From Desulfobacterales bacterium (GTDB lineage Bacteria > Desulfobacterota > Desulfobacteria > Desulfobacterales > B30-G6), in assembly GCA_029940035.1 (NCBI GenBank), contig JAOZRT010000012.1:1-35323 (forward strand): a stretch of DNA of 35,323 nt, given 5' to 3'. The notes under the pieces are model-generated. The model was not told the origin of the DNA. It did not search any database and was given only the letters and a program-made list of their open reading frames with translations. The number at the start of each line of letters is the position of its first letter. Position 1 is the stretch's first letter. The translations under genes were made by a program, and so were the position numbers. Of this stretch, positions 4,679 to 33,433 are shown in pieces.

Positions 4679-4697
4679 ATAATAAGGAACCTATGCC

Positions 4698-7600
4698 ATG
4701 ATCCGCATTACTGCCTTGAAAAACAGCCTGGGCCGACTGCTCCGTCTGAATATTTTTGTGGGCCGCATCCTGGCTTCCGTACCAGAGAACGCGCTTGTGC
4801 TGTTCCCGATCCGCCAGGCGACCTTCCACTGCGGGCTGGCCGGCATCGTCGCCATTAAATCGGCGGCCGGGCAACAACCGGATTCCGTTTTCGATGATCT
4901 TCAAAAGCAATTCAAGCATATCGCGGAAGGGAAATTTACCTGCTGTAAAGAGCAGAATCTGGTCATGGAAGACCTTTATCTGAACGGCGGAAATGCCCTG
5001 GATCAATTTTTGGCCCATGTCCAAAGACTGAAACGCTCCCGGGCCTTTGTCGATCTTTTCCTTGACCAGGAGCAGCTGGTCCGGCTTGACAGGCTTTCCG
5101 ACAAGGTGTCAGCCCTGATTCACGAGGAAGAACAGGCCCTGGCCGCCCACATGAGCCATCTGGAAACCGGGCTGGTGGAATGCATGTCAGGCGGGCTGGA
5201 AACCCTGAAAGACGCCCACTGGAGCATGACCGAAGTAATCAAAGGCAACATCGAAAATACACGGGCACTCATCAGTTACGCCCCCGCAGCAAAGAATCCT
5301 GAGGCCATAAAAATTTTCAGGGAAATCAACGCGGTTCTCAACAGCCTAGACCGCCTGGAAGTCCGGGGAAGGGATTCAGCCGGGATTTCACTGCTGTTCG
5401 TGCTGACCAGAGATCGCTTTGCAGCGTTTCAAAACAAGCTTGAGGAGGATAATCTCGGGTCCGCCATAGAGGAACGGATGTCCAACAAAATCCTGCTCAA
5501 CAATGATATCAGCCTGTTTCCCCAGGTGCCCGCCGACACGGCAGGACCCGTCTCAATTTCATTTACCTATAAAATCGCCGCGGAAATAGGCAGTCTCGGG
5601 GACAACATCGCCTTTATCCGGGAACAAATTAAAAACGATGCAATATTCCAGCGGCTGGCGACCTGTTCCCTGGTTCACCACACCATTTCTTCGCATACAC
5701 GCTGGGCTTCTATCGGTGAAATAAGCGAAGCCAACTGCCACCCGGTTGACAACAAGCTCGATAAAAAGGATGTTCCCCTCAACGGCATCATCCACACCTG
5801 CCTCAATGGCGACATTGACAATTATCTCGATCTTAAGGCCGGCTTGGAAAAACAGGGTCTTGCTCAGCCTGCGGGGATATCTACAGATACCAAGATAATC
5901 CCCCTCCAGATCGAACAGTATATCCGCCAGGGGCACGATGTGTCAGAGGCATTCCGGCTGGCTGTTAATCAATTTGAAGGTTCCCATGCCATCAGCATGC
6001 ACAGCGATCTGGCTCCGGGTAAATTATTTCTGGCCCAGAAAGGCAGCGGACAAGCGATTTTCGTCGGTCTGTCGGATGAAATGTACATGCCGGCCTCCGA
6101 GGTGTACGGATTTGTCGAAGAGACGTCCGCCTATCTTAAACTGGATGGAGAAAAGATCGTGGAGGGCATTGACGGTGAAACCCAGGGCCAGATATTCATC
6201 CTGGATCAAACCTCACCAGGGGGTCTTCCCGGTATCACCGCCCTCTACTACGACGGCACGCCCCTGGTTTTAACTGATGCGGACATCAAGCATACCGACA
6301 TCACCTCCCGGGATATTGACCGGCAGAATTTCCCCCATTACTTTTTAAAGGAAATCTCCGAGTCGCCCCTTTCAGTGGAAAAAACCCTGTACAACCGCTG
6401 GAAATCCACTGGCCGGCATGCGGGCCAACTGGCAACGTGCCTGGATGAAAATGTTCTCCCGGCCTCCATTGCCGCAGCCATTGCCGAAAGAACCATCAGA
6501 CGCATCTTCTTTGTCGGACAGGGTACCGCCGGTGTTGCCGCCAAGGCTTGTGCCAATATCCTTGACTATTACCTTGATGATCCGCTTTTGTACATAGACG
6601 CATTGAAGTCCTCCGAGTTGAGCGGGTCCAAGCTTAGTGAAGGTGACGCACCGGACAGCATGGCGGATGCCCTTATCGTTGCCATCAGCCAGTCCGGGAC
6701 AACCACGGATACAAACCGCACAGTGGATATGGTAAAAGAAAGGGGCGCGGCGACGCTGGCCATCGTCAACCGCAGGGATTCGGACCTTACCTTCAAAGTA
6801 GACGGTGTGATGTACACCAGCACAGGCCGCGACCTTGAGATGTCCGTCGCCTCAACCAAAGCTTTCTACTCTCAGATCGTTGCCGGCGCGCTTTTAAGCC
6901 TGCATATCGCGTTTCTGGCCGGCAAAAGAGGGGCGGAATTCGTGTCTCAGGAATTACAGGACCTTCGCGAACTGCCGGCCCACATGCATACCATTCTGGG
7001 TATGCAGGCGGAAATAGCGGCTTCCGCCCGCAGGCTGGCTGCCACGAAAACCTATTGGGCGGCTGTCGGCAGTGGCCCCAACAAAGCCTCAGCCGACGAA
7101 ATACGCATCAAGCTGAGTGAACTCTGCTACAAAACGATCTCCTCGGATTTTGTCGAAGACAAAAAGCACATAGACCTTTCCTCAGAACCGCTGATCATCG
7201 TTTGTGCGGCAGGGTCCCGAGACACTGTTATCGGCGATATCATCAAAGACACGGCTATTTTCAAAGCGCACAAAGCCATACCGGTAGTCATCGCAGACCA
7301 GGGAGAGCAACGGTTCGACCCCTATGTGGAGGATATTTTTCATGTTCCCACGGTCAGTGAACACCTGGCTCCCATTGTCAACACCCTGGTGGGACACCTC
7401 TGGGGATACTACGCGGCCCTGGCCATCAACGAAGGCTCAAAATTCCTCAACGACTTCCGCACGGAGATCCGCAAGGATATTGACGACCGCGCGCGGGAAG
7501 GAATGGATGTATACGAAGTCATCCTGGAAAAATCGTTCAGGGAGCGCGTAGCCCTTTTTTACAGTGACTTCAGGGCCAAAAGACGGCAAAAAAAGTTCCC

Positions 7601-8423
7601 GCTCTCCATCGCATGGGCATCCGATCTGACCCTTCTTTTGAAGTACCTCGCGGGACGATTGCCTGTATCCGATTTTGAAATCGATTTTGCCGTCAAAGGC
7701 ACGGCCTTGAACATGCTCAACACGCTTTTCAAATATCTGGGCGACTCCATCAACAGCATGTCCCGCCCCATCGACGCCATCAAGCATCAGGCCAAAACAG
7801 TCACAGTGGGCACCAGCCGCATCAGTGAGAAAATCGAGGGGCTTCTTTTCGACGCGCTGGCCCAGGAAGGGCTGAAGCCTTCCCAACTGACCAACAGGAA
7901 TGTTCTCGTCCTTAAAAACCTGCAGCAGATCACCGCCCACATCAGGGGATCCATCCTCTACCGGATCGGCCGTTTAAACCTCTTGGGGGAACCTACCCGT
8001 GATACCACCATCGAGGTCCTTGAAAAACACGGTGAGCTCAAACCGATTCCATCGCGTGTTGAAACGGATACAGCCCTCAAGGGTACCAAACGCATCATCG
8101 TCAGTCAGGGCAATGTTTATATCGGCAAGGGACGCAAGGATGACCGCAGCATTGTGGTCATACCCGTCATTACTTCCGGAGGGAATATCATTGAGAATCT
8201 TCTACTGCTCAATGTCGCCTTCAAGAAAAACGTGGACCTGGACCTCAAAATCAAAGCCCTGGGCGGAAAATACGAACATATTAAGAACATCGTCCAGGAA
8301 AACAACGTTGAATGGCATGACCGCCTCATAGAAAATATCGAGGTGGAAGAGTTGTTCGGCATCTCGGCTGAAAAGATTGGCGAACGCATCGTTTCTCAAT
8401 TCAACGAAACCGAAATGTCTTGA
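4698..8423 (+). CDS. Giant GlmS-like protein: glutamine amidotransferase class II plus two SIS domains, with large insertions and C-terminal extension
   Basis: At 1241 aa this is twice the length of GlmS, which makes glucosamine-6-phosphate from fructose-6-phosphate and glutamine. The Ntn-type glutaminase signature is present: Cys45 in HCGLAGIVAIK, RGRDSAG (about 224), HTRWASIGE (about 333), LNGDIDNY (about 370) and TDTKII (about 395). SIS domain 1 has VGQGTAG (about 605), SQSGTTTDT (about 664) and ASTKAF (about 718); SIS domain 2 begins near 787 (AVGSGPNKASADE). A GlmS-tail-like segment, RPIDAIKHQAKTVTVGTSR, lies near 1023, after a roughly 100-residue insertion, and about 200 further residues of unknown type follow. 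In canonical GlmS the cysteine is residue 2 of the translation product and lies close to the RGYDSAG motif. Here 44 residues precede it and a roughly 165-residue helical insertion follows. AAGGA at 4684-4688 supports the ATG at 4698. Placement after kdsB suggests supply of amino sugar to lipid A or peptidoglycan, but the substrate is unproven. Confidence 0.85.
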   Translation: MIRITALKNSLGRLLRLNIFVGRILASVPENALVLFPIRQATFHCGLAGIVAIKSAAGQQPDSVFDDLQKQFKHIAEGKFTCCKEQNLVMEDLYLNGGNALDQFLAHVQRLKRSRAFVDLFLDQEQLVRLDRLSDKVSALIHEEEQALAAHMSHLETGLVECMSGGLETLKDAHWSMTEVIKGNIENTRALISYAPAAKNPEAIKIFREINAVLNSLDRLEVRGRDSAGISLLFVLTRDRFAAFQNKLEEDNLGSAIEERMSNKILLNNDISLFPQVPADTAGPVSISFTYKIAAEIGSLGDNIAFIREQIKNDAIFQRLATCSLVHHTISSHTRWASIGEISEANCHPVDNKLDKKDVPLNGIIHTCLNGDIDNYLDLKAGLEKQGLAQPAGISTDTKIIPLQIEQYIRQGHDVSEAFRLAVNQFEGSHAISMHSDLAPGKLFLAQKGSGQAIFVGLSDEMYMPASEVYGFVEETSAYLKLDGEKIVEGIDGETQGQIFILDQTSPGGLPGITALYYDGTPLVLTDADIKHTDITSRDIDRQNFPHYFLKEISESPLSVEKTLYNRWKSTGRHAGQLATCLDENVLPASIAAAIAERTIRRIFFVGQGTAGVAAKACANILDYYLDDPLLYIDALKSSELSGSKLSEGDAPDSMADALIVAISQSGTTTDTNRTVDMVKERGAATLAIVNRRDSDLTFKVDGVMYTSTGRDLEMSVASTKAFYSQIVAGALLSLHIAFLAGKRGAEFVSQELQDLRELPAHMHTILGMQAEIAASARRLAATKTYWAAVGSGPNKASADEIRIKLSELCYKTISSDFVEDKKHIDLSSEPLIIVCAAGSRDTVIGDIIKDTAIFKAHKAIPVVIADQGEQRFDPYVEDIFHVPTVSEHLAPIVNTLVGHLWGYYAALAINEGSKFLNDFRTEIRKDIDDRAREGMDVYEVILEKSFRERVALFYSDFRAKRRQKKFPLSIAWASDLTLLLKYLAGRLPVSDFEIDFAVKGTALNMLNTLFKYLGDSINSMSRPIDAIKHQAKTVTVGTSRISEKIEGLLFDALAQEGLKPSQLTNRNVLVLKNLQQITAHIRGSILYRIGRLNLLGEPTRDTTIEVLEKHGELKPIPSRVETDTALKGTKRIIVSQGNVYIGKGRKDDRSIVVIPVITSGGNIIENLLLLNVAFKKNVDLDLKIKALGGKYEHIKNIVQENNVEWHDRLIENIEVEELFGISAEKIGERIVSQFNETEMS

Positions 8424-14710: not shown

Positions 14711-16447
14711 CTAGAAATCAAACACCTTGTCAAGGTCTTCATCGCTGACCTGAAAGGTTACGTTATGCGGCGCGAGGGGCTCCTTTTTAAAATATTCTGG
14801 CAGCCGGTCATCCTTGGCCGTAAAGCCTGCCCTGGCGTTGAAGTCTCTTTCAGCCTTCAATACCGCCATACCCAGGTTGCTCACATCGTCGGCGGTCAGA
14901 GGTTGGCCGCTGAAACCGCTGATAATATCCAGCAGCGCCTGGAACGTTTCGGGTTGGTCCAGTATCGCGAAGGCAATAAAGAGGCACATACCCGTGGAAT
15001 CAATCGCTGCCGTGGCAATCTGCAGGTTTTTGGACAACTCCACCTGCCCTTCCGGTTTTGTGCCATCCACGTTGCCGCCGACCCCCAGCAGATTGGCTGT
15101 TACCGAGTAGCCGGCCGTGTGGTCCGCACCCATGGTGGTGGTGGCATAGGTCACACCGATGCCCTGTACCGCCCGCGGATCATAGGCCGGCATGGACTGC
15201 TTTTTTACGACCGGCACGCGCTCGACACCAAACACCTGACCGGTCACAGCTGCACCATTGCCTAGAATCCGTCCCAGAGGCGTCCCTTCACCAACTTCCT
15301 TGAGCAGATTAATGGCTGCCTGGGCATCCCCGAACTTGGCGAGGCCGGCCTCCATGGCCACACCGATGGCCACCCCCATTTCAATGGTGTCCAGGCCAAA
15401 ATCATCATCCATGCGGTCGAGCTGGGCAACGGTATCCAGGTCATCGATACCGCAGTTCCCGCCATGGGCCCAGATGGTTTCATATTCGGGCTGCTTGGTC
15501 AGGAAATTACCGTCCTTGTCGTTGAAAATACCCGAGCACTGGATCACACATCCCTTGTGGCATCCGTGGGTGGCCAGACCGCCCCTTGAGGTTTCCAGTT
15601 CAGCCTGGGTTTCACCGCTAAGCTTCGAGGCGCCGTCAAACTGACCGGTGGAAAAATTGTTGGTTGGATACCCGCCCGCCTCGTTGACCACATTGGTCAG
15701 TACGTTTGTGCCGTAAGCCGGCAGTCCCTCACCGGTTACCGGATGCTTTTTCAACCCTTGTACCCAGGCTTTATTGGCTTCGCGGAACTTGTCCGGGTCA
15801 GCAGGCTGACGTTTTGACATACCTTCGTCATCCAATACGATCAGTTTCACCCCTTTCGAACCCATGACCGCGCCGACGCCCCCGCGCCCTGCATGGCGGG
15901 TTGGCCGTTGTTCCATGTCCGTAAAAGCAATGGAAGCCGCCGACATCTTCATTTCACCTGCCGGGCCGATGGAGATTGCACACACTTTATCTCCATATGC
16001 TTCCTTCACCTTGTCGATGACGGCATAATTGCCCAGCATCTTGAGGCTGTTGTCTGTCGTTATCTCGACACCGTCCTTGTTGATTAAGATCTTGTACAGG
16101 TTGTCGTCCGCCGGCTGCCCTTCAATCACGATGGCCGCGTACCCCAGCCGGGCCAATACTTGTGAAGGCTGGCCCCCGGAGTTGGCTTCCTTGATACCGC
16201 CTGTTAACGGGCTCTTGCAGCCCACAGAAATTCTGCCTGACATGGCTGCCACGCTGCCGCTCAACATACCCGGCGCGATAACCAGCTTGTTGTCCTCACC
16301 AAGAGGATGGCAGAGGGGAGGGACTTCCTTGGAAACGATGGTAGAAGTCATTGCCCGCCCACCGAGCCCTGCATACTCGCCCAGAGCCTCAACAACAGTT
16401 TTCGGGCCGCCCTCTTCTCCCATTTTCACACGCAAAATTTTATCCAT
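14711..16447 (-). CDS. Tungsten-containing aldehyde:ferredoxin oxidoreductase family protein
   Basis: AOR-family enzyme, which oxidises aldehydes to acids (or the reverse) with a bis-pterin tungsten cofactor and a [4Fe-4S] cluster in the cytoplasm. The N-terminal domain has the family run MTSTIVSKEVPPLCHPLGEDN and GRISVGCKSPLTGGIKEANS. AGRGGVGAVMGSKGVKLIVL is the pterin-binding region. The first three cluster cysteines are in HGCHKGCVIQCSG, spaced CX3CX3C; classical AOR has CX2CX3C, and the longer spacing recalls YdhV-like members (from memory). A distal Cys sits in DSTGMCLFI. The start ATG 16447 (MDKILRVKMGEEGG) is fixed by GGAGG 8 bp upstream and gives 578 aa. The true substrate is unknown. 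MoaA, encoded at 24.5-25.5 kb, makes the pterin precursor. Confidence 0.93.
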   Translation of the reverse strand: MDKILRVKMGEEGGPKTVVEALGEYAGLGGRAMTSTIVSKEVPPLCHPLGEDNKLVIAPGMLSGSVAAMSGRISVGCKSPLTGGIKEANSGGQPSQVLARLGYAAIVIEGQPADDNLYKILINKDGVEITTDNSLKMLGNYAVIDKVKEAYGDKVCAISIGPAGEMKMSAASIAFTDMEQRPTRHAGRGGVGAVMGSKGVKLIVLDDEGMSKRQPADPDKFREANKAWVQGLKKHPVTGEGLPAYGTNVLTNVVNEAGGYPTNNFSTGQFDGASKLSGETQAELETSRGGLATHGCHKGCVIQCSGIFNDKDGNFLTKQPEYETIWAHGGNCGIDDLDTVAQLDRMDDDFGLDTIEMGVAIGVAMEAGLAKFGDAQAAINLLKEVGEGTPLGRILGNGAAVTGQVFGVERVPVVKKQSMPAYDPRAVQGIGVTYATTTMGADHTAGYSVTANLLGVGGNVDGTKPEGQVELSKNLQIATAAIDSTGMCLFIAFAILDQPETFQALLDIISGFSGQPLTADDVSNLGMAVLKAERDFNARAGFTAKDDRLPEYFKKEPLAPHNVTFQVSDEDLDKVFDF

Positions 16448-16551
16448 CGGTTGCCTCCTTTTCCTTTGGTAAAAGATTTTCCATTGCACCCATTCAAGGG
16501 GCATCATTTTATGTTGGCAGGGTTGCCGAACAGGTCCACCAATCCAGCATG

Positions 16552-16592
16552 ACAATCACATTGTAATTATTGGTATTAATAAGTAATGTCAA
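16552..16592 (-). promoter_or_regulatory. Candidate AOR promoter with an inverted repeat at the start site
   Basis: On the minus strand a perfect TTGACA (16592-16587) and AATAAT (16571-16566) are 15 bp apart, in the 170-bp gap upstream of AOR. Just downstream lies the small inverted repeat ACAAT-CAC-ATTGT (16552-16564), where transcription should start, as expected of an operator. I cannot name a regulator. Confidence 0.4.
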
Positions 16593-18872: not shown

Positions 18873-19778
18873 TCAATTTCCGGCTTCAGCCAGGTAATGA
18901 CGGCGATACCACTTCAGAGCTTTTGCAAAAGCAGCACAGTCGGCAAATCTGTCTTTCGGATCGTATGCCAGGGCTTTGGCAACAATACGGTCCATATCCT
19001 GATTCAGGGCTGCATTCAACTGGGACGGTGTTTTCTGAAAAATCCCCTGCCTGTTTTTCTGTTTCTGTTTCAAAAGTGAAATGAGCGAATCATATTCAGG
19101 AAGGGGCAGTTGAAACACCATTGCCTGAAACAACAGCGTGCCCACGGCATAAATATCGGCCCGACCATCCACTTCGGATGTGGACACCTGTTCCGGTGGC
19201 ATGTACAACGGGGTGCCCAGAATCATCTCCGCCCCTATTTCATCACCCTTAATCATCTTAGCCGTCCCGAAATCGGAGATCAAGGGCCGCTTGCTGTACT
19301 TTTCGATCAAGATATTGGCAGGCTTGATGTCACGGTGAATGATTCCCTGGCTGTGGGCATAGCCCAACGCATCCAGCACCTGAAGGATGATATTGAAAGT
19401 GGCTTTAAGAGGCAAAATTCTTTTTGAGGGCACAACATGCTTGGCCGCCCTTTCAAGGTATTCTGCCAGGTCATGCCCTTGAACCATCTGCATGCTCATA
19501 TACAGATAGTCACCTCCCTCGCCAACTTCATAAATAGGGATGATATTGGGGTGGGACAAAATGGCGGCCGCCTCGGCTTCCAGTTGGAACCTCTCTGCCG
19601 CCACTGGTGTCATCAGCGACTTCGGTAGAATTTTCAGGGCGATTTTCCGCTTCAAGCTGCGTTGATAGGCTTCAAACACCAGAGCCATACTGCCCCTGCC
19701 GATCTCCTTCAGAACGGTGGCGTTCCCGACATCCCGTCCCACGAGGTGGCTCATATCAATGTCTCTGATGGAAGTCAT
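18873..19778 (-). CDS. Eukaryote-like (Hanks-type) Ser/Thr protein kinase
   Basis: Cytoplasmic protein kinase of 301 aa with a complete catalytic core: Gly loop IGRGSMALVFEA (about residue 27), the ATP-binding Lys in KIALKIL, the catalytic loop IIHRDIKPANILIE (about 150), the metal-binding DFGTAK (about 172) and GTPLYMPPEQ as the P+1 region. There is no transmembrane helix and no PASTA or other sensor domain, so it is essentially a bare kinase domain. I chose ATG 19778 (MTSIRDIDMSHL), 16 codons inside the longest frame, because the upstream extension runs into the divergent promoter region. It probably heads a two-gene operon with the degenerate-GGDEF protein. Confidence 0.92.
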   Translation of the reverse strand: MTSIRDIDMSHLVGRDVGNATVLKEIGRGSMALVFEAYQRSLKRKIALKILPKSLMTPVAAERFQLEAEAAAILSHPNIIPIYEVGEGGDYLYMSMQMVQGHDLAEYLERAAKHVVPSKRILPLKATFNIILQVLDALGYAHSQGIIHRDIKPANILIEKYSKRPLISDFGTAKMIKGDEIGAEMILGTPLYMPPEQVSTSEVDGRADIYAVGTLLFQAMVFQLPLPEYDSLISLLKQKQKNRQGIFQKTPSQLNAALNQDMDRIVAKALAYDPKDRFADCAAFAKALKWYRRHYLAEAGN

Positions 19779-19861
19779 AGTAAGTTTCCCCCATAGTCTC
19801 AATCCATTTTTTTGTAGCACAACCAAATGGATAAACTCAACCGTTTTGAATATTTATGGGT

Positions 19862-32005: not shown

Positions 32006-33433
32006 TCAGCCGGGTTGGCTCTGCAGCATGGATTCAAATGCCTGGATGATGATGTCAAACTCGCGTTCTGCGAGGGTCCTCACATCCATAATGAACCGGT
32101 CCTCTTCTATGCGCCCGATGATGGGCGGGCACCCGCTCCTGAGCCGCTGTTCCACCTGGTTGACGGAGATAAAATTGACCTTTACCCGCACGCAGAATGT
32201 GGGCAGACCCTCCAGCGGCATGGAACCTCCCCCTGCCCGTGAAGCACCTTCGGCAACATCTATTTCCATACGTCCGTCCCCCGCCTTTTTGAGCATGGCC
32301 GCCAGTCGTCCGGCTTTTTCCTCCAGTACTTCCGCCGGGGTAGTGAGCATGTTGAGGGTGGGAATCTCCTCCACGGCACGTTTTTCATCACGATACAGGC
32401 GCAGCGTGCTTTCCAGAGCTGTCAGCGTGAGCTTGTCGATCCGTAGCGCCCGTGTAAGCGGGTTCTGTTTGATTCTTTCGAGGATTTCCTTGGAACCGGT
32501 AATGATGCCGGCCTGGGGGCCACCCAGGAGCTTGTCCCCGCTGAATGTCACAACATCCGCTCCGGAAGCCACGGATTCCTGAACAGTCGGTTCCCTGACC
32601 AAATTGTATTTGGAAAAATCGACAAAGGTTCCGCTGCCAAGGTCCTCCATCACGGGAAGCCGGTATTTTTCCCCCAGCGCCACCAGTTCTTCGAGAGATA
32701 CGCTTTTGGTAAACCCCACAAGGCCGAAATTGCTGGTGTGCACCTTCAGCAACAGGCCGGTCTCGTTGTCCACCGCCTTTTCATAATCCTTTGCATGGGT
32801 CCGGTTTGTTGCGCCGACCTCCTGCAACAGGGCGCCGCTCTTTGCCATTACATCGGGAATCCGGAACGAACCGCCTATTTCAACGAGTTCCCCCCTGGAA
32901 ACGATAACCTTTTTACCTTTGGCGATGGTATCCAGGCAAAGCAGTACCGCCCCGGCATTGTTGTTCACCACCATGGCCGCTTCCGCACCGCTTATTTCAC
33001 AGAGCAGATCCTCTACCGCACTGTACCGGGACCCTCTTTTGCCCACATCGAGGTCAAACTCGAGATTGGAATACCCCGCACCAATGGTTTGTATACTTTC
33101 CAGGGCTGCTGCCGCCAACCGGGATCGACCGAGATTGGTGTGGACAATGACGCCGGTGGCATTCACCAGATATCGCAGGTTTTGGGTCATGCGCTGGGAA
33201 GCCGCCTTCTGCACCTTTTGCTGAACCTGTTCCTCGCTCAAGGAACCCGCCTCCCCGGTCAAGGCCCCATCGAGTATGGCCGAACGCAGTTCTTCAATGG
33301 CCTCCCTGGCGGAGGCAATCCTTACCGATCGCGGGACCTCCGCAAACCATGCATCCTTTTGCATGTATTCCAGCAAATTATCGACGCCCGGAAGCGACCT
33401 CAGCAACTGATTCCTCGATTTGTCCTCAGCCAT
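32006..33433 (-). CDS. selA: L-seryl-tRNA(Sec) selenium transferase
   Basis: PLP enzyme that converts seryl-tRNA(Sec) to selenocysteinyl-tRNA(Sec) using selenophosphate. Family features: RYLVNATGVIVHTNLGRSRLA, the EFDLDVGKRGSRY loop, VVNNNAGAVLLCL, and the PLP lysine in TFSGDKLLGGPQAG (about residue 297). Length 475 aa is standard. AAGGGGGGAGC is a strong ribosome-binding site for ATG 33433. Its presence implies that this organism makes selenoproteins, though I see no in-frame UGA selenoprotein, selB, selD or tRNA-Sec in the window. Confidence 0.96.
   Translation of the reverse strand: MAEDKSRNQLLRSLPGVDNLLEYMQKDAWFAEVPRSVRIASAREAIEELRSAILDGALTGEAGSLSEEQVQQKVQKAASQRMTQNLRYLVNATGVIVHTNLGRSRLAAAALESIQTIGAGYSNLEFDLDVGKRGSRYSAVEDLLCEISGAEAAMVVNNNAGAVLLCLDTIAKGKKVIVSRGELVEIGGSFRIPDVMAKSGALLQEVGATNRTHAKDYEKAVDNETGLLLKVHTSNFGLVGFTKSVSLEELVALGEKYRLPVMEDLGSGTFVDFSKYNLVREPTVQESVASGADVVTFSGDKLLGGPQAGIITGSKEILERIKQNPLTRALRIDKLTLTALESTLRLYRDEKRAVEEIPTLNMLTTPAEVLEEKAGRLAAMLKKAGDGRMEIDVAEGASRAGGGSMPLEGLPTFCVRVKVNFISVNQVEQRLRSGCPPIIGRIEEDRFIMDVRTLAEREFDIIIQAFESMLQSQPG

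Follow-up and report, generated by a model that had tools for sequence, protein, structure and literature searches.

The stretch of DNA analysed, here called the window, comprises 35,323 nucleotides of contig JAOZRT010000012.1 from a Desulfobacterales bacterium. At positions 4698-8423 of its plus strand it carries a gene whose reading frame is open throughout and encodes 1241 residues, with a Shine-Dalgarno-like AAGGA at 4684-4688, 9 nt 5′ of the ATG. The product is a long relative of GlmS, which catalyses the committed step of amino-sugar and cell-wall synthesis; glucosamine-6-phosphate is the first building block of the bacterial cell wall. The usual GlmS is a compact protein of about 600 residues that starts at its catalytic Cys. 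In the long protein this residue is Cys45, encoded by TGC at 4830-4832 and preceded by a CAC codon. Directly upstream of the long glmS gene lie waaA and kdsB; the upstream region also includes a transpeptidase (PBP) gene at 1264-2658. Elsewhere in the window, the minus strand carries genes for an aldehyde ferredoxin oxidoreductase (14711-16555), a protein kinase (18873-19826) and the selenocysteine synthase SelA (32006-33433). No known RNA families were found near the long glmS gene.

Pfam matches were obtained for GATase_6 (residues 329-467) and SIS (601-733). The NCBIfam glmS model (TIGR01135) gave 231 bits over model positions 40-589 and did not reach its curated cut-off of 418; judged by sequence, the protein is a divergent variant outside the TIGR01135 equivalog as curated. 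When compared with two canonical GlmS proteins from the same order, the segments in excess were residues 1-44, 56-207 (152 aa, 4863-5318), 240-289 (50 aa, 5415-5564), 350-359, 914-1024 (111 aa, 7437-7769) and 1039-1241 (203 aa). An earlier note on this DNA had described a 1241-residue GlmS relative with a buried Cys, and the open frame and the presence of the HTRWAS, LNGD and TDTK motifs agree with that description. The 44 residues that it placed ahead of the Cys were also found, and no internal start in the window bypasses them. Of the insertions that it listed, the one ahead of the GlmS-like tail and the approximately 200 residues beyond the tail were recovered, whereas the insert after the Cys exists and is helical but measures 152 residues instead of about 165; the 50-residue insert had been missed.

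The mature chain (residues 45-1241) was modelled with a mean pLDDT of 84 and a pTM of 0.71, and the model superposed on human GFAT-1 and E. coli GlmS with Z of 36-37 over 580-600 aligned residues, running from residue 1 on residue 1 to C-tail on C-tail. The Ntn glutaminase domain, inserts included, spans residues 45-536 (4830-6305) and aligned with all 239 residues of 1xff (rmsd 1.9 Å, Z 29.3), with Cys45 sitting where Cys1 does; the same residue superposes on residue 1 of 2j6h. The motif HTRWAS (residues 333-338, 5694-5711) corresponds to GlmS R73-W74, LNGD (369-372) contains the oxyanion hole N370-G371 (5805-5810; GlmS N98-G99), and TDTK (396-399) contains D397 (5886-5888; GlmS D123). The double-SIS isomerase domain follows at residues 541-913 (6318-7436; Z of about 36 against GlmS/GFAT isomerase domains), with the sugar-phosphate loop S664-Q665-S666 (6687-6695; GlmS S347-Q348-S349), K805 and E808 (7110-7121; GlmS K485 and E488) and H824 (7167-7169; GlmS H504). 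The GlmS C-tail was located at residues 1025-1038 (7770-7811) and includes K1033, the counterpart of GlmS K603, which forms the Schiff base with fructose-6-phosphate.

Conservation of these residues was followed among the homologues. The predicted nucleophile Cys45 is kept in 118 of 118 distinct sequences. The Thr-Arg and Asn-Gly motifs, together with R335, N370, G371, D397, Q665, S666, T669, K805, E808, H824 and K1033, were invariant among the rows tested, and Trp336 formed an invariant column in a 53-row alignment. At the GlmS Ser347 position the long forms have Ser or Thr. The equivalent of Ser303, a phosphate contact in GlmS, is Ala in every long-form row; one GlmS of canonical length from the same order has Ala there too. 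Between close relatives, the dN/dS of the glutaminase core was 0.14, that is, under strong purifying selection.

The 56-207 insert, which the model shows as entirely helical, separates strand 1 of the glutaminase from helix 1. A TruB_C_2 match of Pfam within this N-terminal insert was disregarded as weak (E 0.0024, under the cut-off). The last 329 residues, folded separately (pLDDT 88.5), yielded the helical insert 914-1024, a poorly ordered C-tail and an alpha/beta domain at residues 1047-1241 (7836-8420). The best fold match of this domain was to residues 174-361 of 7jsr_A, the large glutamate dehydrogenase L-GDH180 (Z 9.9, 164 residues, rmsd 4.4); at 16% identity and a Foldseek E of 0.02-0.03 this is a resemblance of fold only. 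Many GAF, PAS and CACHE chains came next with Z of 6-7. Profile searches with the C-terminal 330 residues found nothing in the PDB (best E 2.3) and no match in Pfam. By its modelled fold the domain may be described as PAS/GAF-like, with the large glutamate dehydrogenase's sensor region as its closest counterpart, a resemblance that is no proof of sensing.

The N-terminal extension (residues 1-44, 4698-4829) was present in 99 of the 118 homologues. Its proximal part, residues 19-44, is conserved and constrained, with a dN/dS of 0.27 between close relatives against 0.68 for residues 1-18. Over 95 aligned rows, G22 was kept in 88%, F36 in 89% and P37 in 95%; the F36-P37 pair (4803-4808), 8-9 residues before the Cys, is the best-conserved element, and the consensus ahead of the Cys reads roughly FG(K/R)...VP..S(I/V)(V/I)FFP....L.CG. 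In most of the extended genes a start codon with a ribosome site lies 40-65 codons ahead of the Cys. Misannotation of the start site and chance read-through were considered and ruled out by this conservation, the constraint and the upstream ribosome sites. Retained in most homologues and constrained in its proximal part by purifying selection, the extension is real and not a slip of annotation.

The remaining 19 homologues lack the extension, and all of them begin exactly Met-Cys; none has a further in-frame start ahead of it, and 16 of the 19 have a ribosome site at the Met. On the tree, the state of the extension changes seven times by gain or loss, at least five of these changes being forced by well-supported branches; when rooted on a distant Met-Cys pair, a root that is assumed, the tree gives one gain and about six losses. 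Loss of the extension always leaves the Cys at position 1 once Met is removed, which argues that the extended forms likewise need their Cys at the N-terminus. From the Met-Cys relatives we infer that residues 1-44 are a propeptide removed to leave Cys45 at the N-terminus of the mature enzyme, as the simplest reading. Propeptide cleavage had been one of two outcomes put forward in the earlier note, and it is the one that the Met-Cys relatives and the conserved extension favour.

Removal of the extension by a separate protease, or its use as a membrane- or partner-binding tag, would be an alternative to self-cleavage. In its favour, residues 1-18 are under loose constraint and carry many hydrophobic and basic side chains, and the residue preceding the Cys is highly variable among the 99 extended homologues (C 39, S 17, N 10, G 9, F 7). 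However, a variable -1 residue is equally compatible with self-cleavage, which it suits without proving it; the propeptides of PurF and GltS are generally accepted as autoprocessed; and an essential tag would hardly be lost repeatedly from a gene that is itself retained. This alternative is therefore considered unlikely. A second one, the other outcome foreseen in the earlier note, is that the Cys stays buried and the glutaminase is dead, leaving an ammonia-dependent GlmS. Such an enzyme would accord with an extension that no internal start in the window bypasses, and with cleavage being deduced from relatives; but the glutaminase residues are invariant, purifying selection on the core is strong, and a dead domain would have no need of the exact Met-Cys start seen in the lineages free of the extension. 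It is regarded as very improbable, and the glutaminase, on the strength of the Met-Cys relatives and the invariant residues, is predicted to be not dead.

The distribution of the long form was then compared with that of canonical GlmS. Of 58 genomes searched, that of the window among them, 56 contained a full-length or partial homologue, as did 54 of 56 genera; in one of the 58 (G008), the sole match was its canonical-length GlmS. The named relatives belong to MAGs and isolates of Desulfobacterales and other 'Deltaproteobacteria', with remoter members in other families of the phylum at 40-50% and then 33-34% identity. Among 146 genomes of the order that are at least 90% complete, approximately 138 had the long form only, two the canonical only, none both and six neither (figures tallied from a table, with canonical taken as passing the glmS cut-off). 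Across 297 genomes of the phylum, 37 had only the long form, 239 only the canonical, one both and 20 neither; the 38 long-form genomes leave out one further match with an E of 9e-4. All 14 control genomes of the family searches had a canonical GlmS. The single genome of the phylum sample with both forms is G323 (its long form is L150), in which horizontal transfer is possibly the cause. The six genomes of the order with no GlmS of either kind (G023, G044, G103, G129, G133 and G153), each more than 90% complete, would reflect assembly gaps or another source of, or route to, glucosamine-6-phosphate. Although shared ancestry of the genomes inflates these counts, the pattern is plain: the long form replaces the ordinary GlmS across most of the order. 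On plasmids only partial matches of the canonical-GlmS kind were obtained, none covering 80% of the query, and viral contigs gave none.

In the genome of the window itself, which is 99.86% complete, no second GlmS was found, and the long GlmS is the only candidate found there for making glucosamine-6-phosphate. This, together with the mutual replacement of the long and canonical forms, argues for a housekeeping GlmS role. Upstream of the gene, over 80 related loci, metG was found in 48, a transpeptidase (PBP) gene in 42, kdsB in 8 and waaA in 1, and the arrangement metG - PBP - long glmS appears to be an ancestral cell-wall neighbourhood. The suggestion of the earlier note that the protein is a specialised sugar aminotransferase of the Kdo/lipid A pathway beside a normal GlmS, which waaA and kdsB immediately upstream in the window would favour, is the least credible of all, since the genome holds no second GlmS, the two forms are mutually exclusive across the order, and metG and the transpeptidase recur upstream where kdsB and waaA are mostly absent.

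The long GlmS is thus, with good though not full confidence, read as the housekeeping glutamine:fructose-6-phosphate amidotransferase, made as a precursor whose propeptide of residues 1-44 is likely self-cleaved. Against this reading stand the NCBIfam score below the cut-off, the change of Ser303 to Ala, the genomes with neither form and G323 with both. As proposed, the precursor would be made first and residues 1-44 then removed, most likely autocatalytically through an N-to-S acyl shift at the bond preceding Cys45. The freed alpha-amino group would allow hydrolysis of glutamine by Cys45, and the ammonia would be handed on to the double-SIS domain for amination and isomerisation of the fructose-6-phosphate that K1033 binds. 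Oligomerisation or regulation is the probable role of the helical inserts and of the PAS/GAF-like domain that follows immediately on the catalytic C-tail. That the enzyme bears two switches, a self-cleaved zymogen propeptide and a ligand domain of PAS/GAF-like type coupled to the C-tail that ties amino-sugar synthesis to a metabolite, is offered as a tentative and rather doubtful extension of this proposal.

Like canonical GlmS (TIGR01135; the E. coli enzyme, PDB 2j6h and 1jxa), on which it superposes over the whole length of the latter, the long GlmS joins an Ntn glutaminase with a Cys nucleophile to a double SIS and a C-tail with the Schiff-base Lys. It differs from it in a core identity of about 30%, in the predicted propeptide, in the inserts of 152, 50 and 111 residues and in the C-terminal domain of about 200 residues; removal of the initiator Met alone, sufficient in the canonical state that the 19 Met-Cys relatives match, cannot expose a Cys with 44 residues ahead of it. 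The best structural match was human GFAT-1 (PDB 6r4i, 6r4e and relatives; Z 36.9), which has the same fold. Human GFAT-1 has a Met-Cys start and about 680 residues, and is not known to have a propeptide or a C-terminal PAS-like domain. PurF and glutamate synthase are made as precursors in which removal of a propeptide exposes the Cys, and PurF occurs in both propeptide and Met-Cys forms. The long GlmS resembles these two in its conserved extension directly before the Ntn nucleophile, with removal here deduced from relatives, whereas their synthase domains are different.

Most of an anaerobic bacterial order appears, then, to use a GlmS of double size that would require maturation in place of the ordinary one. 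Activation of the glutamine-using half by loss of the first 44 residues was not found described for GlmS in the open-licence literature, nor was any relevant description of a GlmS with a propeptide or of the long GlmS. The propeptide has been lost repeatedly, Met-Cys remaining each time, and this provides a clean comparison set for its purpose in Ntn glutaminases, and the added C-terminal domain, as modelled, suggests a regulated bacterial GlmS.

The position of His44 (4827-4829) is occupied by Cys in the 39 extended homologues mentioned above, forming a Cys-Cys pair with the nucleophile, and a Cys so frequent at -1 could make activation redox-sensitive. GlmM is present in the genome of the window. 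The best GlmU match (L179, G000:C79:4493-5245) covers the uridylyltransferase half only, and a TGA and a TAA fall within the frame of the match; a gene of its own may encode the acetyltransferase half. The second hit in this genome was a PurF-like protein (L006, G000:C224, minus strand) with a short extension before its catalytic Cys (MNFENDKPREACGIFA), which would make it the genome's second Ntn glutaminase of the propeptide type.
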